Below, piece by piece: positions 168-12,001 of a stretch of 12,001 bases of DNA (within the stretch, counting starts at the first letter, position 1; every line of letters begins with the position of its first letter). The position numbers were made by a program, and so were the translations under genes. Source of the DNA: Gemmatimonadota bacterium. GTDB lineage: Bacteria; 4572-55; J002. The DNA lies in assembly GCA_003697105.1 (NCBI GenBank), contig RFFQ01000109.1, positions 1 through 12,001 on the forward strand. The letters run 5' to 3'. The notes under the pieces are model-generated. The model saw only the letters and a program-made list of their open reading frames with translations. It had not been told where the DNA came from and did no database searches.

Positions 168-3100
168 GTGAGGCACTCATTATCGTATCTATTCATATAT
201 GTTTTAGTTTTGATACCCATCTCCTTATCTGCCCAGCAATCCCGAGACACGGCATTGCTGTGTACATTCGGCAATAAAGCGACAACCAATTGGGGCGATG
301 ATGATTATAACCAAGTGATTTTTATAGCGCTCCCTTCGGAAGCAAAAGCCCCGTTTTATGTGCGGATTTATGACCCAGATTGTTACGGCGCATTGGATGA
401 AGCCAACGGCACGTGGAATACTGTTACCGATTTCCGGGTCTATGGCGGCGCAGGCACCTACACCAACCCAAATGCCCGAAGTGTCTCCCCCCAAGAAGGG
501 CTACGCAGTGGAAATCTCCTAAAAGGCCAACTATTTGGTAATGAAGCCCGCTTTGACCAACAATGGTTTGTCTTAGGTCCGTTCTCCCCCACGGAAGGTG
601 AAATTATCGGAAACGAAATCCTGTTCAAGCTGGTGATTGAAGGTAAAGAAGGGGACGATGGAAATCTTTATGACCTCCAAATTAGCCAATCCGAAACCGT
701 ATTTTCCCCATACCCTAACGCTCGCTTGTTTGCCTATGAATTCACCTTTCAGTTGCCTCCCGAAGAAAATCGGGTCATGCAAATTCAATTATTACCGGAA
801 TCTACCGTCACCCAATTAGCACTTTATAATTTTGATTCCGATAAATTGAATAGCTTAACCCTTCGTATCCCCCAGAACCCACCCATCGTATTGGATGCCT
901 CTGGGGATAATACATGGGCGGTCACCCGGGTCGATGTGTCCGAGATGGAGCAAAATTTTTCGGTCAACTTCGGGAAAACAAGTTTTGGGAATAACGATAT
1001 CGTCTTTTATGCAGAAGATCAAAACGGGCGACCCATCCCATTACAATACCCTCTACCCATTGTCCACTTTCAGCAAGTAGAAACTGAGATTAAGCGCGAA
1101 CATGAATGCAATACGATCTTTTTTGATGCCTCGGCCTCAACCGACCCCAATGGCGATTTGTTGGATTATATTTGGGATTTTGGAGATGGCGCCCAAGCGG
1201 CAGGTGTAAGAGTTTCACACACCTATACCAAAAGCGGGGATTACCCCGTAATGCTAACCGTGATTGATAATTCCGGGGCAATTTGTGCCATTGCCAACGA
1301 TGTTGTATCGATCAATATCAACACACCCCCAATTGCAGATGCCGGACCCAATTTGACCGGTTGCCCCAATGAAACCATCCGGTTTAATGGCACGCGCTCC
1401 GTCGATCCCGATGGCGCCATTATTAGTTATGAGTGGGATTTTGGGGATGGTGAATCCGGCCGAGGTGCGACACCGATTCACGCCTATCGAATGCCCGGCA
1501 TGTACACCGTGACTTTGACAGTTACAGATAATTCGGCGACGTCCTGCAACGTGTCATCGGATCAAATCACTGTGAATGTCAATTCCCCGCCCGTCGCCAA
1601 TGCCGGACCCGATCAAACTGTCGGAACCACCACGGTCGTTTTTGATGGCACCGCATCTTATGACCCTGATAACCCGGGCGGCATGACGGGTAACGCCCTG
1701 ATCTACACCTGGGACTTTGGTGACGGTAGCCCGGGCAAACAAGGACCCACCCCATTCCATACATACCAAAAACCCGGTCAATACATTGTGACACTAACTG
1801 TCCAAGACCGCTCCGGTACAGAGTGCAATATCAGCACAGATACCATGATTTTAACCATCAACCAATCCCCTAAAGCAAATGCAGGTACAGACCTTGTAGG
1901 TTGCGCCGGAAAACCAATCACGTTTGATGGCTCCCGCTCCGTGGATGCGGATGGTTCCGTGGTCGAATATCAATGGGACTTTGGCGATGGCAATATCGGT
2001 GAGGGACCAAAACCCACCCACAGTTACGAACGTCCCGGGACGTACAACGCAACGCTAAGTGTGGTCGATAACACTGCCACCCTCAATAGCCGTGACACGG
2101 ATGTAGTAACCGTAACGATTAATCACCCCCCAATGGCAGATGCCGGGATAGATAAAATCGTCTGTGAAAACTCGCAAGTGGTCTTTGATGGTTCAAATTC
2201 ATTTGATTTAGATGGACATATTACCCGGTACGTCTGGGATTTTGGCGATGGAAGCAAAGGCGAAGGCGTTCGTCCGGTACATGTCTATACCAAACCGGGC
2301 AAGTACCCGGTAAAATTGACCGTTTATGACAACAGCAATACCGGTTGCGGGTTTTCTTCCGATGAAGTGACCATTACCGTCAATCAAATTCCGGTGGCAA
2401 ATGCCGGTGCAGATCAAACCGTGTGCAGTAGTACCGTTACCTTCGACGGCACAAAATCCGTCGATCCCGATGGGATAATCACCCAATACTTATGGGATTT
2501 TGGGGACGGAGCGAAAGGCGGTGGTCCTCGCCCCACACACGTTTACCCCGATGAGGGTACATACCTCGTTACACTTACCGTAAAGGATGATTCCGGCACA
2601 AATTGTAACTCCCATAGTGATGTAATGACCGTAGTAATCAACAAAGCACCCGTGGCGGATGCCGGGCCCGACCAGATTGTCTGTACCGGTTCTCCGGTAG
2701 CATTTAATGGGATTGGATCAACCGATTCGGATGGCGCAATCCAAAAATATATGTGGGATTTTGGGGATGGTACCCCCCAAGTGAGCGGAGCCCAAGCCAC
2801 CCATACTTACCAAAAAAGCGGAAATTACCGCATCATTCTAACCGTGACCGATAATTCTGGAACCAGTTGCCAAAATACCATCGATGACCTGATTGTCCGG
2901 GTCAACAATCCTCCCGTGGCGGAAGCCGGAACAGACAAACGGGGTTGTGTGGATGAAGCCATCCCGTTTGACGGCAGCGCCTCTTATGACCCCGACGGTG
3001 AAATCCGGCGCTATATCTGGGATTTTGGCGATGGTAGCCCGACGGTGGAATCCGTCAGCCCCGCGCATGTGTATGCCAGCCCCGGCACATACACCGCCAC

Positions 3101-5330
3101 ATTGACGGTCTATGACAATAGCGGTACCACCTGCAATAGCGATACCGATAAAATCGTCGTCGTGATTAACGAAATGCCAATTGCCGAAGCCGGCGAGGAT
3201 ATCCACACCTGTAATACCACGGTCACATTTGACGGCAGCCGCTCTGTGGACCCAGACGGCGGAAAATTAAGCTATCACTGGGATTTTGGCGATGGTTATA
3301 CCGGTAGCGGTCCGCGACCCACCCATACGTACCGCCAACCGGGGGTGTATCCGGTCACATTAACCGTGACCGATGATAGCGGTACCCGGTGCAATAATAA
3401 CTTTGATAACCTCACCGTGTTTATTAACCAACCCCCCATTGCCGATGCCGGCGAAGACCAAGTCGTCTGCCTGACAGACATCGTGGCATTCAATGGGAGT
3501 AAATCGGTTGATCCAGATGATGGCGTCTTAAATTATGTTTGGGACTTTGGAGATGGCTCACCTCCCAAAAGCGGCGTGGTTAGCCCCATCCACCAATACC
3601 AAAAAGGCGGAATTTACACCGTCACTTTGACGGTTACGGATGATTCCGGCGTGGCGTGTAATACCAGTATTGATAAAGTTACCGTCCAAGTTGCCGAAGC
3701 ACCTTCTGCAGATGCCGGTCCAGACCAAACCGTCTGTGCCAATACACAAGTTAAATTTGATGGATCAAAATCACGTGACCTTGACGGGCAAGTAAATGCA
3801 TTCTATTGGGATTTTGGTGATGGAAATACCGGCGGCGGCATGAATCCAACACACGTGTACAACCGTGCCGGAATCTACACCGTCACCCTCACTATTACCG
3901 GCGATGAAGTCGGGAATTGCACCAATAGTGATACGGATGTAATGACCGTCACCGTACATGAAGCACCTACGGCAGTTGCCGGTGAAGACCAAGTCGGTTG
4001 TGTCGGAGAACGTTTGGTTTTTGATGCAAGCCTTTCCAAAGCCGCCAGCCCCATCGAAACCTATTTGTGGGATTTTGGCGATGGAACACAGCAAAATGGT
4101 ATCATGGTCAATCATGCTTATACCAAACCCGGAACATATACCGTGAATCTAACGGTTCAAGATAATTCCGGTACGGAATGCAACCAAACCAGCGATAAAT
4201 TGACTGTCATCATTAACAACCCCCCTGTTGCCAATGCGGGGGAAGACATCAAAATTTGTATCAATGACCCCGTTAAATTTGATGGCACCGCCAGTGTGGA
4301 TCGAGACGGATTCATTACCTCGTATGAATGGGATTTCGGGGATGGTAACAAAGGACGGGGTGTAAATACCATCCACATTTATAAACAACCCGGCGTCTAT
4401 ACGGCATCATTGACCATTCGGGACAATTCAAATGTGGCGTGCAATGTGGCGAACGATACCCGCGTAATTACGGTCAACCAACCCCCCGTTGCCCAAATTG
4501 GGGATGAGCAGCAAACCGTTTGTGTCGGAGAATCGGTTCAGTTTAACGGCACATCCTCCCAAGACGCCGATGGGCAGATCACTAAATACGAATGGGATTT
4601 CGGGGATGGTAACAAAGGAAATGGGGAAAATACCAGCCACATCTACAAAAATCCCGGCACATATCAGGCAACATTGCGTGTTATTGATGATTCCGGGGTG
4701 TATTGCAGCGTTGGAACCGCCTCCACGACGATCATCGTCAACCAACCCCCGATTGCAGAAGCCGGGGCTGATAAAATTGCCTGCCCCAATGAAACGTTGT
4801 ATTTTGACGGCGCACAAAGTACCGATCTGGATGGGCGAATTGTCCGGTATGAATGGGATTTTGGTGATGGTACGCGCGGCAACCAAATTAAAACAAGCCA
4901 TGAGTATCTGGAACCGGGAACATACACCGTTACCTTGACAGTCACCGATGATTCCGGTACCGAATGCGCAACCGCCACAGACCAACTGACCGTGATTATC
5001 AATGAACCACCTTTGGCAGCCGTTACATTAGACGATATAACCGCCTGTGTCGGTTGTGCTCATGATGAAGTCTATTTTGATGCCTCACCATCGAAAGACC
5101 GAGAAGGCGGGCGGCTAAGCTTTCAGTGGGATTTTGGTGATGGAACAAAAGGGGTGGGAATGCGTCCAACACATACTTACACCGAACCCGGTGTGTACAA
5201 TGTTACGCTAACCGTCATTGATGACTCCGGCACAAAGTGTAACTATTCCACCATCAATATTACCGTAAATGCCAATCGAGCACCAACACCGGATATTCAA
5301 ATCCGTTCAGATGCCGGTAGTAAGCCTTAA
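168..5330 (+). CDS. giant secreted protein with 16 PKD domains
   Basis: A 1720-residue exported protein starting at GTG. Residues 1-22 form a signal peptide (basic R2/H3, hydrophobic core, S-L-S-A then QQ). Residues 23 to about 303 form an N-terminal region with cysteines at 32 and 72 that I do not recognise. Sixteen PKD (polycystic kidney disease) Ig-like domains fill residues 304-1702, each with a W-D-F-G-D-G core (first W at 336, last at 1654) and a G-x-Y-x-V-x-L-T-V strand; most also have an S-x-D-x-D-G loop, which repeats 12 and 16 lack. PKD domains are known in cell-surface and extracellular proteins, where they act as spacers or in protein and carbohydrate binding. No catalytic domain, transmembrane helix, LPXTG, PEP-CTERM or recognisable secretion tail is visible. 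The last 18 residues (from N-R-A-P-T-P) resemble the start of a further repeat. A surface stalk, adhesin or matrix protein is my inference. The neighbouring glycan operon is a separate unit behind a terminator. Confidence 0.9.
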   Translation: MRHSLSYLFIYVLVLIPISLSAQQSRDTALLCTFGNKATTNWGDDDYNQVIFIALPSEAKAPFYVRIYDPDCYGALDEANGTWNTVTDFRVYGGAGTYTNPNARSVSPQEGLRSGNLLKGQLFGNEARFDQQWFVLGPFSPTEGEIIGNEILFKLVIEGKEGDDGNLYDLQISQSETVFSPYPNARLFAYEFTFQLPPEENRVMQIQLLPESTVTQLALYNFDSDKLNSLTLRIPQNPPIVLDASGDNTWAVTRVDVSEMEQNFSVNFGKTSFGNNDIVFYAEDQNGRPIPLQYPLPIVHFQQVETEIKREHECNTIFFDASASTDPNGDLLDYIWDFGDGAQAAGVRVSHTYTKSGDYPVMLTVIDNSGAICAIANDVVSININTPPIADAGPNLTGCPNETIRFNGTRSVDPDGAIISYEWDFGDGESGRGATPIHAYRMPGMYTVTLTVTDNSATSCNVSSDQITVNVNSPPVANAGPDQTVGTTTVVFDGTASYDPDNPGGMTGNALIYTWDFGDGSPGKQGPTPFHTYQKPGQYIVTLTVQDRSGTECNISTDTMILTINQSPKANAGTDLVGCAGKPITFDGSRSVDADGSVVEYQWDFGDGNIGEGPKPTHSYERPGTYNATLSVVDNTATLNSRDTDVVTVTINHPPMADAGIDKIVCENSQVVFDGSNSFDLDGHITRYVWDFGDGSKGEGVRPVHVYTKPGKYPVKLTVYDNSNTGCGFSSDEVTITVNQIPVANAGADQTVCSSTVTFDGTKSVDPDGIITQYLWDFGDGAKGGGPRPTHVYPDEGTYLVTLTVKDDSGTNCNSHSDVMTVVINKAPVADAGPDQIVCTGSPVAFNGIGSTDSDGAIQKYMWDFGDGTPQVSGAQATHTYQKSGNYRIILTVTDNSGTSCQNTIDDLIVRVNNPPVAEAGTDKRGCVDEAIPFDGSASYDPDGEIRRYIWDFGDGSPTVESVSPAHVYASPGTYTATLTVYDNSGTTCNSDTDKIVVVINEMPIAEAGEDIHTCNTTVTFDGSRSVDPDGGKLSYHWDFGDGYTGSGPRPTHTYRQPGVYPVTLTVTDDSGTRCNNNFDNLTVFINQPPIADAGEDQVVCLTDIVAFNGSKSVDPDDGVLNYVWDFGDGSPPKSGVVSPIHQYQKGGIYTVTLTVTDDSGVACNTSIDKVTVQVAEAPSADAGPDQTVCANTQVKFDGSKSRDLDGQVNAFYWDFGDGNTGGGMNPTHVYNRAGIYTVTLTITGDEVGNCTNSDTDVMTVTVHEAPTAVAGEDQVGCVGERLVFDASLSKAASPIETYLWDFGDGTQQNGIMVNHAYTKPGTYTVNLTVQDNSGTECNQTSDKLTVIINNPPVANAGEDIKICINDPVKFDGTASVDRDGFITSYEWDFGDGNKGRGVNTIHIYKQPGVYTASLTIRDNSNVACNVANDTRVITVNQPPVAQIGDEQQTVCVGESVQFNGTSSQDADGQITKYEWDFGDGNKGNGENTSHIYKNPGTYQATLRVIDDSGVYCSVGTASTTIIVNQPPIAEAGADKIACPNETLYFDGAQSTDLDGRIVRYEWDFGDGTRGNQIKTSHEYLEPGTYTVTLTVTDDSGTECATATDQLTVIINEPPLAAVTLDDITACVGCAHDEVYFDASPSKDREGGRLSFQWDFGDGTKGVGMRPTHTYTEPGVYNVTLTVIDDSGTKCNYSTINITVNANRAPTPDIQIRSDAGSKP
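1077..5273 (+). repeat. tandem array of 16 PKD-coding units
   Basis: The TGG of the W-D-F-G-D-G motif falls at 1173, 1434, 1710, 1974, 2235, 2493, 2754, 3018, 3279, 3540, 3807, 4068, 4329, 4593, 4854 and 5127. Spacings are 258-276 bp and always whole codons, with 261 bp (87 residues) the commonest. Repeat 3 is longest because of an N-P-G-G insertion before its core motif. Units have diverged at the DNA level, so this is an old coding repeat rather than a simple satellite, except for a 30-bp exact match between units 13 and 14. Linkers follow a P-P-[VI]-A-[DNE]-A-G pattern. Cysteines occur just before strand B and in the F-G hairpin of nearly every unit. Confidence 0.93.
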
Positions 5331-5413: not shown

Positions 5414-6385
5414 ATGAAGGCAATGAACATCATACCAACCTGCGATTTATCGATTATCATTCCTCTGCTCAATGAAGCCGATTCCTTGCACGAACTATAT
5501 GAACGCTGCCGGATAGAAGTCAATGCTCTGGATTTAAGCTATGAATTCATCTTTATTGATGATGGCAGTACCGACAATTCCGCCGCAATCATTCAAGAAC
5601 TCCATCAACAAGACCCCCACATTAAATTGATTCAATTCCGGCATAATTATGGCAAAGCGGCAGGTCTCGCCATCGGATTTGAAGCCGCCAACGGCGCAAT
5701 CGTGATTACAATGGATGCCGACCTACAAGATGACCCCGCCGAAATTCCAAATTTAATTGCCAAAATCAATGACGGGTGGGATTTGGTCTCCGGTTGGAAG
5801 AAAAAACGCAAAGACCCCCTCACAAAACGGTTACCCTCCAAAGTGTTTAATTATGTAACCGCAAAAGTCACCGGTTTAAAAATCCATGACGCCAATTGTG
5901 GACTCAAAGCGTACCGTTATGAGGTTGCCAAAACGGTGTATCCCTATTTATACGGGGAATTGCACCGTTATATCCCCGTCTTAGCACATATGGAAGGCTT
6001 CCGGGTAACAGAAACGGTTGTGGTACACCATCCCCGCAAATATGGCATTTCCAAATATGGCATGTGGCGGTTTTTTTCCGGATTTTTTGATTTGACGACG
6101 GTTGTCTTTCTGAACCGGTACACCAAACGTCCTCTCCATTTTTTCGGAATTTTGGGATTAATCACGTGGGCCACCGCCTCTTTAATTGCTTTGTACTTCT
6201 TTTGGGTCTGGCTAAACGAAGGCGCCTTACGGGTACGCCCAATGCTCCTCTTTGCCGGATTTTTAGCCGTCATTGGCGTGCAATTTTTCTCGATGGGCTT
6301 ATTGGGCGAAATGATCACCCGTTTCCGGCAAACCCCCCACACGGCAGATTATCTCATCAAAAATCGATTAGGATTCACCAAATGA
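5414..6385 (+). CDS. polyprenyl-phosphate glycosyltransferase (GT2, DPM1/GtrB-like)
   Basis: A 323-residue membrane-associated GT2 enzyme, predicted to move a sugar from a nucleotide donor to a polyprenyl phosphate (undecaprenyl phosphate in bacteria) on the cytoplasmic face. The GT-A fold shows S-I-I-I-P-L-L-N-E at 13-21, D-D-G-S at 49-52 and the metal-binding D-A-D-L-Q-D at 101-106. The family's N-C-G-L-K-A and K-Y-G-I-S-K-Y-G stretches follow. Two C-terminal transmembrane helices lie at about 243-267 and 277-301, the usual DPM1/GtrB/ArnC layout, and the length is normal. ATG 5414 has AAGG 10 bases upstream; an ATG at 5423 (codon 4) is possible but has AAGG only 2 bases away. It is the first gene of the operon and overlaps the next by ATGA. 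The sugar cannot be read from sequence, and no GtrA flippase or GT-C partner is in the window. Confidence 0.88.
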   Translation: MKAMNIIPTCDLSIIIPLLNEADSLHELYERCRIEVNALDLSYEFIFIDDGSTDNSAAIIQELHQQDPHIKLIQFRHNYGKAAGLAIGFEAANGAIVITMDADLQDDPAEIPNLIAKINDGWDLVSGWKKKRKDPLTKRLPSKVFNYVTAKVTGLKIHDANCGLKAYRYEVAKTVYPYLYGELHRYIPVLAHMEGFRVTETVVVHHPRKYGISKYGMWRFFSGFFDLTTVVFLNRYTKRPLHFFGILGLITWATASLIALYFFWVWLNEGALRVRPMLLFAGFLAVIGVQFFSMGLLGEMITRFRQTPHTADYLIKNRLGFTK

Positions 6386-7086
6386 AAACCGTCATCTTAG
6401 CCGGTGGATTCGGAACCCGCTTACGTTCGGAAGTCGCCGACCGCCCCAAACCCATGGGACTCATTGCCGGAAAACCCTTTTTGCAGTACCAACTTGAGTA
6501 CCTCTATTCTTTTGGCTTAACGGAATTTATTCTCTGTGTGGGCTACAAAGCCGATCAAATTATGGATTTTTTCGGCGATGGCAGCTCGTTTGGGATACAG
6601 ATCGATTACGCCCGCGAAGAAAAACCGCTGGGTACTGCTGGCGCACTAAAAAACGCCGGCTTAAATGAACCGTTTTTAGCCCTAAATGGCGATTCCTTTT
6701 TGCGAGTCGATATAACACAGGTACTCACATTTTACCAGAAAGTACACGCACCCGTAATCGTGTGCCGGTATGTAACCGATGCGTCGCGATATGGCGCCGT
6801 CCAATTTGATGCCCACCAGCGGATTATCGCTTTTCAAGAAAAAGCGAAGGCGCATGGCGCCGGTTGGATCAACGCCGGCATATATGTGCTCAATCCGGAT
6901 TTGATGATGACAATCCCACCCCACCAAAAGGTATCCATTGAGCAGGAAACTTTCCCGGCATATCTGGAGCGCGGAATGTACGCCTTCCCTTCGGAGGATT
7001 ATTTCATCGATATTGGCACGCCCCAAAGTTACCAGCAAGCACAGCGAGATGTTGATTACCTTAGCCCTTGGAGAAAAATACCATGA
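6382..7086 (+). CDS. hddC: D-glycero-alpha-D-manno-heptose-1-phosphate guanylyltransferase-like nucleotidyltransferase
   Basis: A 234-residue sugar-phosphate nucleotidyltransferase. In the HddC family it joins heptose 1-phosphate and GTP to give GDP-D-glycero-D-manno-heptose in the cytoplasm. Visible motifs are L-A-G-G-F-G-T-R-L at 6-14 (nucleotide binding), R-P-K-P-M at 21-25, P-L-G-T-A-G-A-L at 82-89 and the metal-site N-G-D at 102-104. A longer reading frame opens at 6166 inside the previous gene, but the N-terminal signature demands the ATG at 6382, which overlaps the upstream stop as ATGA. The HddC assignment rests on overall resemblance and on the kinase gene immediately downstream. A glucose-1-phosphate or mannose-1-phosphate nucleotidyltransferase is the alternative, since nucleotide specificity cannot be proved from these motifs. 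Confidence 0.82.
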   Translation: MKTVILAGGFGTRLRSEVADRPKPMGLIAGKPFLQYQLEYLYSFGLTEFILCVGYKADQIMDFFGDGSSFGIQIDYAREEKPLGTAGALKNAGLNEPFLALNGDSFLRVDITQVLTFYQKVHAPVIVCRYVTDASRYGAVQFDAHQRIIAFQEKAKAHGAGWINAGIYVLNPDLMMTIPPHQKVSIEQETFPAYLERGMYAFPSEDYFIDIGTPQSYQQAQRDVDYLSPWRKIP

Positions 7087-8087
7087 TTTACCGGAGTAAA
7101 GCGCCTTTACGAATCAGTTTTGCCGGTGGCGGCACCGATGTGTCACCCTATCCCGAAGAACGAGGAGGCGTCGTACTAAATGTCACCATTGATAAATACG
7201 CGTATGCCTCTTTGAAACCGCGTGATGATCGCAAAATGTCTATCCACTCCTTGGATTACGACATCGTCGCCAAATACAATATGGATGAAGAATTGACTTA
7301 CAATGGAGAACTCGACCTAGTTAAAGCGGTCGCGCGGAATCTGGAAGTCGATCAAGGGTTTGATCTGTTTATTCATAGTGATGCCCCGCCCGGCTCCGGA
7401 TTGGGATCATCTTCCACCATGTGTGTCGCTCTGGTTGGCGTGTTTCAACAGTGGCTAAATCTACCGTTAACACATTATGACATTGCCGAAGTAACCTACC
7501 ACGCGGAGCGAATCGATTTACAAATCACCGGTGGCCGCCAAGACCAATACGCTGCGACATTCGGCGGCTTTAATTTTATTGAATTCCTGAAAGATGCCAC
7601 CGTTGTCAATCCCTTGCGAATCCGACCGGAATATATCAACGAACTACACTACCGGCTTTTACTCTGCTATACCGGCAAAACCCGGCTTTCCGCCAATATC
7701 GTAGCGAATCATTCCAATGCGTTTCGCCGGAAGGAAAAAACAGTTGTAGAGGCACTCGACCAGACGAAAGCGTTGGCAATCGACATGAAAAATTGCCTGT
7801 TACGGGGTGAATTAGACTATTTTGGCGAATTACTCCACCATGCTTGGTTACACAAAAAACAGTTTAACGACCAGATCAGCAATGCCTATATTGATACGTT
7901 ATATGATACGGCTCGCAACAATGGCGCCGTGGGAGGTAAAATCCTCGGTGCAGGGGGTGGCGGCTATCTGCTGTTGTATTGCCCTTTTGATAAAAAGCAC
8001 ATTATTGCCAAGCAGTTAGAAGCGCTGGGTGGACAGATTGTGGAGTTTAGTTTCGAGTTTCAGGGATTGCAAACATGGCAGATTTAA
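7083..8087 (+). CDS. hddA: D-glycero-D-manno-heptose 7-phosphate kinase-like GHMP kinase
   Basis: A 334-residue GHMP-superfamily kinase. The HddA family phosphorylates C1 of D-glycero-D-manno-heptose 7-phosphate with ATP, giving the 1,7-bisphosphate on the way to the GDP-activated sugar. The N-terminal motif A-P-L-R-I-S-F-A-G-G-G-T-D (7-19), the ATP loop P-P-G-S-G-L-G-S-S-S (102-111) and the C-terminal glycine-rich G-A-G-G-G-G-Y (289-295) are all intact. An in-frame ATG at 7068 would add five residues, but the ATG at 7083 forms an ATGA overlap with the preceding stop and begins at the usual family position, so I prefer it. Its 3' end overlaps the methyltransferase gene by 13 bases. A fucose- or galactose-type GHMP kinase is a less likely alternative given the HddC-like neighbour. 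gmhA and gmhB are not in the window. Confidence 0.85.
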   Translation: MIYRSKAPLRISFAGGGTDVSPYPEERGGVVLNVTIDKYAYASLKPRDDRKMSIHSLDYDIVAKYNMDEELTYNGELDLVKAVARNLEVDQGFDLFIHSDAPPGSGLGSSSTMCVALVGVFQQWLNLPLTHYDIAEVTYHAERIDLQITGGRQDQYAATFGGFNFIEFLKDATVVNPLRIRPEYINELHYRLLLCYTGKTRLSANIVANHSNAFRRKEKTVVEALDQTKALAIDMKNCLLRGELDYFGELLHHAWLHKKQFNDQISNAYIDTLYDTARNNGAVGGKILGAGGGGYLLLYCPFDKKHIIAKQLEALGGQIVEFSFEFQGLQTWQI

Positions 8088-8818
8088 ATCGCCCGCTGGG
8101 ACAACCTGCCGCCTATCATGAATTGATTGTAACGCGACGGTTGGCAGTGTTGCAACAGTTTGAAGGTTTTCTGGACGCATCAAAAACGCTGGTGGATGTG
8201 GGCTGCGGGAATGGGGCGTCCCTACTGCAATTAGCACATCACTTTCGTTTGTGTCATGGTATTGATATTTCCGCCGCCAACCAACATGCGTTTGAAGCCG
8301 AAGCCCGCCGCCGGAATATCCAAAATTGTACCTTCTCTTTAGCCAATATCGACCAGTGGGTAGAAGTTCCAAAGCAGAAGTATGACCGGCTCATCTGCTT
8401 TGAGGTCATTGAGCACGTGCAAGATGACCAACATGCCGCAAAGATGCTCTACCATCTGGTAAAACCCGGCGGCTTGGCGGCAATTTCCGTCCCCAATAAA
8501 TGGTGGATTTTTGAGACCCACGGCGCACGGTTGCCCGTCCTCAAATGGAATCGCGTCCCGTTTTTTTCATGGTTGCCAACCCCGATTCATGAGCGGTTTG
8601 CCAATGCGCGCATTTACACCGTCTCGCGCATTACACGGCTATTGAAAAATGCCGGTTTTACCCTTGTGGATTGGCATTACATCACGGCGCCAATGGATCG
8701 TGTCACATGGAAACCCTTGCAAACGGTTCTCCGGCGTACGCTGTTCGCACAGCACACCACATCGATCCCGATGCTCTCAACCTCAATCATGGTCTTTGCC
8801 GAACGAAAGATGGACTAA
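8075..8818 (+). CDS. class I SAM-dependent methyltransferase
   Basis: A 247-residue cytoplasmic Rossmann-fold methyltransferase. Motif I is D-V-G-C-G-N-G (41-47) for SAM binding, followed by an acidic G-I-D-I-S at the end of the second strand, then F-E-V-I-E-H-V and the post-motif K-P-G-G with a following S-V-P-N, as in the UbiG/Methyltransf_11 group. The start at 8075 lies inside the end of the kinase gene, with AGGGA 8 bases upstream (8062-8066). In this setting the substrate is probably a sugar or nucleotide sugar, or the growing or finished glycan chain as a cap, but nothing in the sequence names it. The C-terminal about 60 residues are less conserved and may carry substrate specificity. 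The next gene starts 4 bases after its stop. Confidence 0.85.
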   Translation: MADLNRPLGQPAAYHELIVTRRLAVLQQFEGFLDASKTLVDVGCGNGASLLQLAHHFRLCHGIDISAANQHAFEAEARRRNIQNCTFSLANIDQWVEVPKQKYDRLICFEVIEHVQDDQHAAKMLYHLVKPGGLAAISVPNKWWIFETHGARLPVLKWNRVPFFSWLPTPIHERFANARIYTVSRITRLLKNAGFTLVDWHYITAPMDRVTWKPLQTVLRRTLFAQHTTSIPMLSTSIMVFAERKMD

Positions 8819-8822
8819 TGCG

Positions 8823-9950
8823 ATGAAAATCTATTTTGTAGCCCCGGCATACCCTTTACGGGGTGGCATTGTGCATTACGTGGCGATTTTGCATAATCTG
8901 CTGAAAGCGCGCGGGCATGACTCCAAAATTTTATCCTTCACCGTGCAGTACCCTAAATTTCTATTTCCGGGTAAAACGCAGGAGGAAGCCAGTAAAGAGA
9001 ATCTGCCCGTCGATGCCGAACCGGTATTTAGCTCCATCAATCCGTTGAGTTGGTTCGCCACATTTTGGAAGATCAAGCACTACCAACCGGATATGGTGAT
9101 TTTCAAATATTGGATGCCCTTTTTTGCACCCGGTTTTGGCACCGTCTGTCTGTTGACCCGGTGGTTTACCAAAACGAAGATTTTATTCATTTGTGATAAC
9201 ATTATTTCCCATGAATCCCTGCCGGGGGAAACCCTGCTAACTCGGATGCTCCTGCGTTTGGTGGATTTTTTCATCGTTCAATCGGATGCGGTCAAAGCCG
9301 ATTTGTTGCGGCTGCACAAAAATGCCGTTTACCGCGAAGTCGCCCACCCCATCTATGATGTGTTTGAATCCCAACCCTTAACGCCGGATGAGGCACGAGA
9401 GCAGTTTAATCTAAAACCCGGCATCCCGGTGGTGCTCTTTTTTGGGTTCATCAAACCCTACAAAGGGTTGCATGTGTTAATCGACGCCATCCCGCAAGTA
9501 CGGGCAGAGCTACCGGACGTTCAATTTCTGATTGCCGGAGAATTCTACGGCGACCGGGAAGCGTACCTCGAGCAAATTCAAAACCTGAATGCCGGTGATG
9601 CCTTACAATTACATGATGATTACATTCCCAACGAGCAAGTGCAAGCGTTTTTCCGTGCCGCAGATGTTGTGGTATTGCCCTACATTTCGGCCACACAAAG
9701 CGGGATCATCCAGATCGCCTATAGTTTTGATAAACCGGTGATTACCACCCGGGTGGGCGGCTTGCCGGAGGTCGTTCTGGATGGAAAAACTGGTTTCGTG
9801 GTGCCTCCGCAAGATAGCGTCGCCTTGGCAAAAGCGATTATCCGGTTTTTTCAGGAAAACCACGCGCCGAACTTTATTGAAAATGTCCGCGAAGAAAAGA
9901 AAAAATACTCCTGGCAACCGCTAATTGAAGCCATTGAAACCTTTTCGTAA
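8823..9950 (+). CDS. GT4-family glycosyltransferase
   Basis: A 375-residue retaining GT-B glycosyltransferase of family 4 type, adding a sugar to the glycan intermediate in the cytoplasm. The N-terminal Rossmann domain opens with M-K-I-Y-F-V-A-P and has a glycine-containing R-G-G-I-V-H acceptor loop. The C-terminal domain has G-F-I-K-P-Y-K-G-L (208-216) and V-G-G-L-P-E-V-V with D-G-K-T-G-F. At the donor-binding site the segment T-Q-S-G-I-I (291-296) stands where many GT4 enzymes have an E-G-F-G-type stretch; T-Q-S-G occurs in a recognised GT4 subgroup, so I read it as subfamily character and not damage. The frame stays open upstream to 8649, but the extra 58 residues lie over the methyltransferase gene and look non-coding. 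ATG 8823 starts the fold directly. Donor and acceptor are unknown. Confidence 0.87.
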   Translation: MKIYFVAPAYPLRGGIVHYVAILHNLLKARGHDSKILSFTVQYPKFLFPGKTQEEASKENLPVDAEPVFSSINPLSWFATFWKIKHYQPDMVIFKYWMPFFAPGFGTVCLLTRWFTKTKILFICDNIISHESLPGETLLTRMLLRLVDFFIVQSDAVKADLLRLHKNAVYREVAHPIYDVFESQPLTPDEAREQFNLKPGIPVVLFFGFIKPYKGLHVLIDAIPQVRAELPDVQFLIAGEFYGDREAYLEQIQNLNAGDALQLHDDYIPNEQVQAFFRAADVVVLPYISATQSGIIQIAYSFDKPVITTRVGGLPEVVLDGKTGFVVPPQDSVALAKAIIRFFQENHAPNFIENVREEKKKYSWQPLIEAIETFS

Positions 9951-9968
9951 CGCAAACAACCCCAGCCC

Positions 9969-10814
9969 ATGACCCCTACCCCCAAAGTCAGCATTGTCGT
10001 ATTGACATGGAACGATAAAGCCAACGTGTTGGAGTGTCTGGAATCCCTGTCACAGGTGGATTACCCGAACCTAGAGGTGATTGTCTCGGACAATGGCTCT
10101 ACAGATGGGAGCATCGAAGCCATCCGGGCAACGTTTCCAAATGTCATTCTGATCGAAAATGGTGAGAATTTAAAATTTTCACGCGGTAATAATGTCGGCA
10201 TACAGTACGCGCTGGAGCACGGCGCCGATTATGTTCTGTTGCTAAACAATGATACGATTGTCGATCCGCATTTCATCACAGAAATGGTCGAAGTAGGTGA
10301 AACTGACCCGACAATTGGCATGTTAGGACCCAAAATCTACTACCATACCGAACCCAACGTGATCTGGTATGCCGGAGGCGAAATTTCCCTGTGGAAAGGC
10401 TTAGCTTGGCACACCGGCATTCGCGAGCCGGACACCGGGCAGTTTGATGAAATTCGGGACGTCGGTTATATTACTGGGTGTGCCCTGATGGTCAAACGCA
10501 ACGTTATCGAAAAGATCGGAATGCTAGACCCCACTTACGTCGCTTATGCGGAGGATTCCGATTTTTCACTCCGGGCGCACCGAGCCGGTTACCGGCTGGT
10601 TTACGTCCCCTCCGCCAAGCTCTGGCACAAAATCGGTGGAGCATGGGGTACGGTCACCCGACGCAAAATTTGGAATAAATTCAAAAGTCATCTGATTTTG
10701 TTCCGCCGGTATGCCCCTCCGCTAGCGTGGTTTACCACCATCCCGCTCTTTTTCGTTCTGGATGGTTTTCGTATCCTCTTCCTGATTGCGAAGGGAAAAA
10801 TCCGCAACACCTGA
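9969..10814 (+). CDS. GT2 glycosyltransferase, rhamnosyltransferase-like (copy A)
   Basis: A 281-residue GT-A family 2 enzyme related to WbbL/RfbF-type rhamnosyltransferases, likely transferring a sugar from a nucleotide donor to a lipid-linked glycan. Motifs are V-S-I-V-V-L-T-W-N (7-15), S-D-N-G-S-T-D (40-46), the metal-binding N-N-D at 93-95, a G-P-K-I-Y-Y segment and the catalytic-region A-E-D-S-D-F-S-L-R. The C-terminal hydrophobic stretch at about 252-273 suggests membrane association. ATG 9969 follows an 18-base gap with no clear Shine-Dalgarno sequence, so translation may depend on coupling. It is a paralogue of the next gene, and by eye about half the residues are identical along the whole length. 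The RmlD-like gene two positions on makes a dTDP-deoxyhexose donor plausible but not proven. Confidence 0.86.
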   Translation: MTPTPKVSIVVLTWNDKANVLECLESLSQVDYPNLEVIVSDNGSTDGSIEAIRATFPNVILIENGENLKFSRGNNVGIQYALEHGADYVLLLNNDTIVDPHFITEMVEVGETDPTIGMLGPKIYYHTEPNVIWYAGGEISLWKGLAWHTGIREPDTGQFDEIRDVGYITGCALMVKRNVIEKIGMLDPTYVAYAEDSDFSLRAHRAGYRLVYVPSAKLWHKIGGAWGTVTRRKIWNKFKSHLILFRRYAPPLAWFTTIPLFFVLDGFRILFLIAKGKIRNT

Positions 10815-10835
10815 CTAGAAAAAAAGCCATTCATA

Positions 10836-11678
10836 GTGTCACCCAAAATTTACCTGATCATTCTCAACTGGAACGGCAGACACATGTTACCCGAGTGTCT
10901 CCAAACCGTCTTTCAACTGGATTATCCGAATGTTGAGGTGATGATCGTTGATAATGCCTCGACCGATCACTCGCGGCAATATGTAACGGAGCATTTCCCA
11001 CAGGTAATCTGGATTCAAAATCAGGAAAATTTGCGCTTTGCCGAGGGAAACAACGTCGGTATTCGCTATGCTTTAGAACACGGCGCAGACTACATCTTTT
11101 TATTGAACAACGATACCACCATTGCCCCGGAGGCGCTCACGGAATTGGTTCAGGTACTCAAATCAGACCCGACGATTGGCGTGGCAGGTCCCAAAATTTA
11201 CTATGCGGATGAACCCGACCGGCTCTGGTTTGCGGGCGGGCGCACTAATTTAATATGGGGGCATTTTTGGCATCGGGGAATCCGCCAACGGGATCACGGA
11301 CAATTTGACCAGATTGAACCCGTCGATTTTATCACCGGATGTGCCATGCTCGTACGCGCCTCAGTGATTCAAACCGTGGGATTGATGGATCCGCACTATT
11401 TCATCTACGGCGAAGACGTTGACTGGTGCCTGCGGATGCGGCAACACGGTTTCCAGTGTGTGTATGTCCCCTCAGCTACCGTCTGGCATAAAATTTCAGC
11501 CAGTAGCGGTCAGGTTTCGGTATTCAAAATCCAGCACCGGCTGAAAAGTCAGTTTCAACTCCTATGGCGATTTGCCCCTCGCTGGGCACTGTTTACAACA
11601 ATTCCCCTCTTTTTGATTGGAGATAGCTTGCGGATCATCTACCTAATTCTCATCAGAAAAATAAGGAATACCTCATGA
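10836..11678 (+). CDS. GT2 glycosyltransferase, rhamnosyltransferase-like (copy B)
   Basis: A 280-residue GT2 enzyme homologous end to end with the gene just upstream. Motifs are L-I-I-L-N-W-N (7-13), V-D-N-A-S-T-D (38-44), the metal-binding N-N-D (91-93), G-P-K-I-Y-Y, I-T-G-C-A and G-E-D-V-D-W-C-L-R, with a hydrophobic C-terminus ending K-I-R-N-T-S. The only possible start is the GTG at 10836: it lies 21 bases after the stop of copy A in the same frame, and no ATG intervenes. No good ribosome binding site is visible. The L-N-W-N and V-D-N-A-S-T-D motifs are the commoner rhamnosyltransferase forms, while copy A has L-T-W-N and S-D-N-G-S-T-D, so the two copies may have different donors or acceptors. 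Its stop overlaps the next start as ATGA. Confidence 0.86.
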   Translation: MSPKIYLIILNWNGRHMLPECLQTVFQLDYPNVEVMIVDNASTDHSRQYVTEHFPQVIWIQNQENLRFAEGNNVGIRYALEHGADYIFLLNNDTTIAPEALTELVQVLKSDPTIGVAGPKIYYADEPDRLWFAGGRTNLIWGHFWHRGIRQRDHGQFDQIEPVDFITGCAMLVRASVIQTVGLMDPHYFIYGEDVDWCLRMRQHGFQCVYVPSATVWHKISASSGQVSVFKIQHRLKSQFQLLWRFAPRWALFTTIPLFLIGDSLRIIYLILIRKIRNTS

Positions 11679-12001
11679 AAATTTTATTGATCGGCGCCGA
11701 CGGACAACTCGGTACGGATTTCCGCAAAATTTTAGCAGGTGAACCGGAGGAAGTGATCCCCAGCACCATCGCAGATATGGATATTACCGATATTCGAGCC
11801 GTCCAAAAGCGATTGCAAGCCGTAAAACCGGATGTGGTGATCTCTACCGCCGCAGAAAATCGAGTGGATTATGTGGAAGATCATCCAAAACAGGCATTTG
11901 CGGTCAACGCTTTGGGACCCCGCAATTTAGCCGTTGCATGCCGTAAAATTGGGGCGATATTGGTCTCTTACAGTACAGATTATGTCTTTGATGGGCAAAA
12001 A
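11675..12001 (+). CDS. rmlD: dTDP-4-dehydrorhamnose reductase-like protein, 3' end outside window
   Basis: The first 109 codons of an extended short-chain dehydrogenase/reductase; the window ends before the rest, about 280-300 residues in the family. RmlD reduces dTDP-4-dehydro-L-rhamnose to dTDP-L-rhamnose with NAD(P)H, the last step of donor synthesis. The nucleotide-binding G-A-D-G-Q-L-G (7-13), the K-P-D-V-V-I-S-T-A-A segment, V-D-Y-V-E-D-H-P, A-V-N-A-L-G and the S-T-D-Y-V-F-D-G signature (100-107) are all characteristic. The Y-x-x-x-K catalytic pair lies beyond the edge. ATG 11675 overlaps the upstream stop as ATGA. RmlA, RmlB and RmlC are not seen and may follow. Other members of the family reduce related 4-keto sugars, so rhamnose specificity is probable, not certain. 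Confidence 0.85.
   Translation, partial: MKILLIGADGQLGTDFRKILAGEPEEVIPSTIADMDITDIRAVQKRLQAVKPDVVISTAAENRVDYVEDHPKQAFAVNALGPRNLAVACRKIGAILVSYSTDYVFDGQK

Follow-up and report, generated by a model that had tools for sequence, protein, structure and literature searches.

Cysteines coupled across the joints of a 16-repeat PKD array from phylum 4572-55 predict disulfide staples between neighbouring domains

The window, by which we mean the whole 12,001-nt stretch of DNA analysed, is an entire contig and carries near its start an ORF for a long repeat protein, here called the window protein. Pfam searches matched PKD_4 (PF18911) to 16 stretches of this ORF with 1352 bits, against a curated cut-off of 27. 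The coding region is laid out as follows.

168..5330, + strand: array ORF, GTG start, 1,720 aa, signal-peptide-like N-terminus, searched against Pfam
243..1076, + strand: N-terminal region, all-beta, no Pfam match
1077..5273, + strand: 16 PKD domains in tandem, from Pfam and a repeat profile HMM

The N-terminal region is conserved in Chromatiales-type Gammaproteobacteria, in phylum 4572-55 and in Bacteroidales, where it forms a standalone protein of ~330 aa. No homologue of it was found in viral contigs. At one locus (L100:3821-8873), read from sequence, the ~330-aa standalone domain lies beside PorP/SprF-like ORFs and a PKD-containing protein. The C-terminus of the window protein consists of 19 residues past the last PKD domain, and no T9SS C-terminal sorting domain was among its Pfam matches. 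A hit to the myxosortase-dependent M36 metallopeptidase family (NF038112) was rejected; it reached 325 bits against a cut-off of 1500 and covered PKD stretches only. Downstream of the array, positions 5414-12001 read from sequence like a glycan synthesis cluster, with glycosyltransferases, a nucleotidyltransferase, a GHMP-type kinase, a methyltransferase and an RmlD-like reductase. Two of the glycosyltransferase ORFs are similar and adjoin each other (9969-10814 and 10836-11678).

All cysteines of the window protein were listed and the repeats were mapped by profile HMM. Two positions recur. The first, C1, lies just before strand B and is a cysteine in 15/16 repeats, the exception being repeat 3 ('QTVGTTTVVF'). 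The second, C2, lies in the F-G hairpin and is also a cysteine in 15/16 repeats, the exception being repeat 4 ('NTATLNSRDT'). An earlier note on this DNA had counted 16 repeats and 30/32 cysteines with the same two gaps, and both its counts and its coordinates were reproduced, as was the C-V-G-C that it placed at residues 1627 and 1630 of repeat 16. If C1 of each repeat n is assigned to C2 of the following repeat, n+1, then 14/15 joints have both cysteines. By this predicted pairing nearly every joint would be stapled, and the window protein stands at the extreme of its family. The putative staples and the remaining cysteines are listed below.

1107..1547, + strand: putative staple 1/2, C314 (C1 of repeat 1) to C460 (C2 of repeat 2), kept in (nearly) all 39 aligned arrays
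1362..1826, + strand: putative staple 2/3, C399 to C553, from the repeat HMM
1620..2087, + strand: bare joint 3/4, V485 side (repeat 3 without C1) and N640 side (repeat 4 without C2), bare too in paralogue C96 and the G001 orthologue
1902..2348, + strand: putative staple 4/5, C579 to C727, from the repeat HMM
2163..2606, + strand: putative staple 5/6, C666 to C813, from the repeat HMM
2424..2870, + strand: putative staple 6/7, C753 to C901, from the repeat HMM
2682..3134, + strand: putative staple 7/8, C839 to C989, from the repeat HMM
2946..3392, + strand: putative staple 8/9, C927 to C1075, from the repeat HMM
3210..3659, + strand: putative staple 9/10, C1015 to C1164, C1 and C2 in the identical 13/39 arrays
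3468..3920, + strand: putative staple 10/11, C1101 to C1251, kept in (nearly) all 39 arrays
3735..4181, + strand: putative staple 11/12, C1190 to C1338, kept in (nearly) all 39 arrays, C96 being one alignment column off
3999..4442, + strand: putative staple 12/13, C1278 to C1425, from the repeat HMM
4257..4706, + strand: putative staple 13/14, C1364 to C1513, from the repeat HMM
4521..4967, + strand: putative staple 14/15, C1452 to C1600, from the repeat HMM and alignment
4782..5240, + strand: putative staple 15/16, C1539 to C1691, C1 and C2 in the identical 15/39 arrays
5046..5057, + strand: C1627-V-G-C1630 of the last repeat, where the partnerless C1 has another cysteine close by, taken as local closure
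1284..1286, + strand: C373 (C2 of repeat 1), with no upstream repeat and unpaired under the n/n+1 rule
261..383, + strand (codons 261-263 and 381-383): N-terminal region cysteines C32 and C72, which probably pair within the domain

In the window protein taken alone, a single absent C1 and a single absent C2 would share a junction by chance with P ~1/15. The coincidence of the two gaps is thus weak evidence within the window protein and is decisive only when homologous sequences are added. Domain-by-domain mapping was carried out on 14 arrays from three phyla, comprising 191 junctions and 205 domains; arrays of the same clade in this sample are not independent. C1(n) and C2(n+1) were both cysteine at 108 junctions and both absent at 83, and one was never found alone. 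The two sites within a domain, C1(n) and C2(n), were discordant in 71/205 domains, and C2(n) and C1(n+1) were discordant at 85/191 junctions. Across the three phyla, then, the presence and absence of cysteines is perfectly coupled across joints in the sequences compared. The earlier note had proposed pairing of C1(n) with C2(n+1) and had suggested examining homologues for paired gain and loss. A cysteine without its partner was found at 0/191 junctions, and the proposed pairing is further borne out by an HMM-free spacing test on additional arrays. Pairing between neighbours is strongly supported, about as well as sequence alone permits.

The coupling is seen in each group of arrays. The window's phylum is represented in the collection by two genomes, and its array set consists of the window protein, paralogues C96 and C22 from the same genome, and G001:C72 and G001:C81 from the second genome, the last two corresponding to arrays of Candidatus Cloacimonetes bacterium 4572_55 (NBMB01). 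Pooled, these five arrays have 56 joints with both cysteines, nine with neither and none discordant. C96 and G001:C72 have the bare 3/4 joint and the terminal double cysteine in common with the window protein. C22 and G001:C81 are each concordant at 11/11 joints, and their bare joints lie elsewhere (5/6, 6/7 and 9/10 in C22; 2/3, 6/7 and 8/9 in G001:C81). The Thiocystis violacea homologue, with 1,611 aa and 15 repeats, has 12 mature cysteines that make exactly six n/n+1 pairs over its 14 joints, and its relatives follow the same pattern without exception. One of the gammaproteobacterial arrays, L129, likewise resolves 12 cysteines into six pairs with zero orphans. Related arrays were found in 93/395 Bacteroidota genomes scanned, and those that were mapped obey the n/n+1 rule.

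The spacing test dispenses with the HMM. Among the Bacteroidota arrays L147-L170, the majority contain just six cysteines over ~1,500 aa; every one of these has a partner 145-161 aa away, and no orphan is left. When six positions were drawn at random in 1,510 aa, all of them paired at 144-153 aa in 7/200,000 trials. The coincidence probabilities of five arrays alone multiply to ~10^-12.6, a product that is overstated as L120 and L144 share an inherited pattern. The test also produced one chance pairing, that of C76 with C216 in C22. The C1/C2 cysteines are mostly lacking from control PKD arrays of other lineages. L163 has none, and the array in L050 carries other cysteines that could not be placed on the ladder.

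Several apparent exceptions were traced and rejected. C1481 of L140 sits in a repeat that the HMM missed, the array of L143 is cut by the contig end, two repeats of L146 were missed by the HMM, and the extra cysteine of L145 is in strand A rather than at C1. Five discordant cells in the whole-protein alignment (C96, C22, G001b and L145) are absent from the domain-by-domain mapping. A non-overlapping partition was used for the repeat pseudo-alignment; overlapping windows were discarded because MAFFT put shared repeats out of register. The gammaproteobacterial arrays at L120, L129 and L136-L140 are of a type otherwise confined to Bacteroidota and 4572-55 and come from organisms akin to Thiocystis violacea. 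Arrays of this type are patchy, occurring in 5/146 other genomes sampled from the order of Thiocystis violacea, which suggests horizontal transfer.

Repeats 2-5 were modelled with AlphaFold2 from an alignment built from the homologous loci gathered here (pLDDT 93.6, pTM 0.67). A modelled domain aligned with the ColH PKD domain 4u6t at Z 16.4 and rmsd 0.7 over 86 residues by VIA-align, identifying it as a PKD beta-sandwich. In each domain of the model C1 lies between strands A' and B and C2 lies between F and G. Domains of the Ig-like fold carry the A-B turn at their C-terminal end and the F-G hairpin at their N-terminal end. Since these loops are at opposite ends, C1(n) and C2(n+1) would face each other across the joint. 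In repeat 3 the loop preceding strand C carries an insertion, 'NPGGMT' (window ~1671-1706), where the pLDDT falls below 50, the lowest certainty in the model. A similar insertion occurs in paralogue C96, not in the G001 orthologue.

The reading we favor, with a probability of about 0.9, is that the window protein forms an exported rod, at the cell surface or in the periplasm, whose 16 PKD domains are predicted to be joined by C1(n)-C2(n+1) disulfides at 14/15 joints. Neighbours in tandem Ig-like arrays are normally joined by short flexible linkers. Here the A-B turn cysteine of domain n would bond with the F-G hairpin cysteine of domain n+1, and each predicted bond would lock two neighbouring domains so that a flexible string may become a stiff, stretch-resistant rod. 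From the coupling we infer that the paired cysteines are oxidised disulfides; such staples would stiffen the rod. The 3/4 joint would be left unstapled and may serve as a hinge. The last domain, which has no successor, has a further cysteine next to its C1.

The terminal double cysteine is general in the window's clade. The earlier note had suggested that the last C1 could close on itself, and a second cysteine three or six residues away in 5/5 arrays of the clade argues for this. The mapped gammaproteobacterial and Bacteroidota arrays have no C1 in the last repeat. C373, C32 and C72 leave the window protein with an odd cysteine total (33). In the homologue alignment C72 is accompanied by a cysteine at the C32 position or six residues further along, suggesting that the two form an intradomain pair and that C373 is free, where it could perhaps contact another chain. 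Two extra cysteines surround the F-G hairpin of repeat 9 in L116, the 4572_55 orthologue (residues 1058, 1065 and 1067, 'VCDDSESECACNSD'), and possibly form an added local disulfide. Searches of the two 4572-55 genomes (97% and 93% complete) for oxidation proteins gave no match to DsbA (PF01323), Thioredoxin_4/DsbA-like (PF13462) or VKOR (PF07884).

Other explanations of the ladder were weighed. The coupled cysteines might be metal or cluster ligands, one set per joint, or might form interchain bonds in an oligomer. Co-occurrence reveals contact or cooperation rather than chemistry, calcium sites are known at PKD and BIg joints of other proteins, and the searches of the window's phylum for a canonical oxidase (DsbA, VKOR) found none. 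Against metal, each joint has just two conserved cysteines, and no other feature was noticed to vary with them. Interchain bonding would require a parallel staggered assembly, and the C-x-x-C by which the last domain would close locally fits a disulfide. We regard this explanation as improbable.

The earlier note had itself offered an alternative in which C1(n) and C2(n) bond within each domain and the orphans, C2 of repeat 3 and C1 of repeat 4, pair across the joint. It draws on the 14/16 window repeats that have both cysteines. It is contradicted by the 71/205 domains with one cysteine only, and it would leave at least half of the cysteines unpaired in the Thiocystis and six-cysteine Bacteroidota arrays, where the n/n+1 rule pairs all of them. 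The established topology of the Ig-like fold, which puts the A-B turn and the F-G hairpin at opposite ends of a domain, also speaks against it. Intradomain pairing was therefore set aside as very unlikely.

Finally, the repeats are homologous and the arrays paralogous, and many copies have both cysteines by descent, so the ladder might be a structurally meaningless by-product of duplication or gene conversion; we give this almost no credence, as such processes would couple neighbouring cysteines, contrary to the pattern, and bare joints vary between arrays yet stay paired, with 0/191 junctions discordant. The chain order is C1(n), C2(n), C1(n+1), C2(n+1). The coupled outer two are ~148 residues apart and the uncoupled C2(n) and C1(n+1) lie inside the pair, with the result that no contiguous block carries the pair alone and contiguous-block duplication cannot account for the coupling.

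The history of the predicted staples between neighbours was examined in an alignment and tree of 39 arrays. Staples corresponding to window joints 1/2, 10/11 and 11/12 are nearly universal. Joints 2/3 to 8/9 are bare in every array outside 4572-55. The C1 and C2 columns have identical species sets at joints 5/6, 6/7, 7/8, 8/9, 9/10, 10/11 and 15/16, and on the tree each of the variable joints among these underwent one or two changes. The earlier note had described the 3/4 gap as a linked double loss. Its direction is probably wrong; because outgroup arrays are bare at 2/3 to 8/9, it is most likely that no staple was ever gained at 3/4. The window's clade seems to have added staples until just the 3/4 joint remained.

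Gene context in relatives points to a possible function. In 22/26 neighbourhoods of relatives examined with phmmer the array closes a three-gene cassette, preceded first by a Cache/HAMP membrane receptor and then by a FecR protein that carries Ig-like domains and, in many cases, LysM. The cassette is usual in Bacteroidota and Gammaproteobacteria (L171:827-19046, with two in tandem in one Bacteroidota genome; L172:2313-10913; L120:2983-12743; L173; L194-L211; L214-L216). The output domain of the receptor is exchangeable, being an adenylate/guanylate cyclase or histidine kinase in Bacteroidota and GGDEF-EAL in Thiocystis. A literature search on a FecR/LysM/PKD operon returned nothing relevant. 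From the context in relatives we infer that the rod serves a sensing module as its envelope component and that in this module the FecR protein, often with LysM, could hold peptidoglycan. In 4572-55, C96, C22 and G001:C72 are not in a receptor/FecR cassette, 167 nt of the window contig precede the array, and a lone LysM-FecR homologue lies elsewhere in the window's genome. If the window protein has a sensory role, it is therefore suggested by kinship only. A broader proposal, which we put forward tentatively and consider doubtful as it stands, is that a widespread and undescribed envelope sensing module uses a stapled PKD rod of tuned stiffness to couple peptidoglycan-bound FecR/LysM proteins to a Cache/HAMP receptor with interchangeable outputs. 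Staples would be gained and lost joint by joint, with 3 to 14 of them in each rod, and such a rod might act as a ruler or as a force and redox sensor.

PKD arrays are known, and systematic stapling of neighbours with a code that can be read from sequence appears to be undescribed in the literature searched. The C1(n)/C2(n+1) code would allow locked and free joints, hence rod stiffness, to be read from genomes, and the predicted stiffness is testable by removal of individual cysteines. The code also offers a way into a large family of array proteins, so far unannotated, that lie beside FecR/LysM proteins and receptors in Bacteroidota and Gammaproteobacteria. The candidate disulfides, 14 or more in one protein, raise the question of how they would form in a phylum with no recognisable DsbA or VKOR.

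The window protein shares its fold and WDFGDG core with PKD_4/PKD (PF18911, PF00801). The PKD domains of ColG and ColH from Hathewaya (Clostridium) histolytica have the same fold, with single-domain Z of 16 and rmsd of 0.7-1.3; other solved examples of PKD domains are AAVR/KIAA0319L and the archaeal surface-layer protein 1l0q. ColH 2a-2b, the best match by sequence among the tandem PKD structures solved, lacks the C1/C2 pair in the alignments listed, unlike the window protein. To our knowledge inter-domain disulfides have no precedent in PKD arrays, and a literature search for them in PKD or Ig-like arrays yielded nothing relevant. Among the matches listed, GhpA (9flp, 9flu, 9flx and others) is the only bacterial solved tandem chain that spans all four modelled domains, aligning at Z 12-14, rmsd 4-6 and 18-22% identity by VIA-align. 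GhpA is described as the grappling hook protein of Aureispira sp. CCB-QB1, a giant Ig-like rod of Bacteroidota with 5,898 aa that forms a heptameric appendage (Lien et al. 2024 via PMC13319060). GhpA and the window protein have no N-terminal domain shown to be shared, and a T9SS sorting domain was not found in the window protein. The eukaryotic Ig/FN3 rods of the titin I-band, ICAM-5 and Robo1 are alike in their beads-on-a-rod architecture by VIA-align, with no sequence kinship shown. Disulfides in rods of the titin, ICAM-5 and Robo1 type are typically within one Ig domain. In the window array, by contrast, the predicted cysteine pairing is between neighbours.
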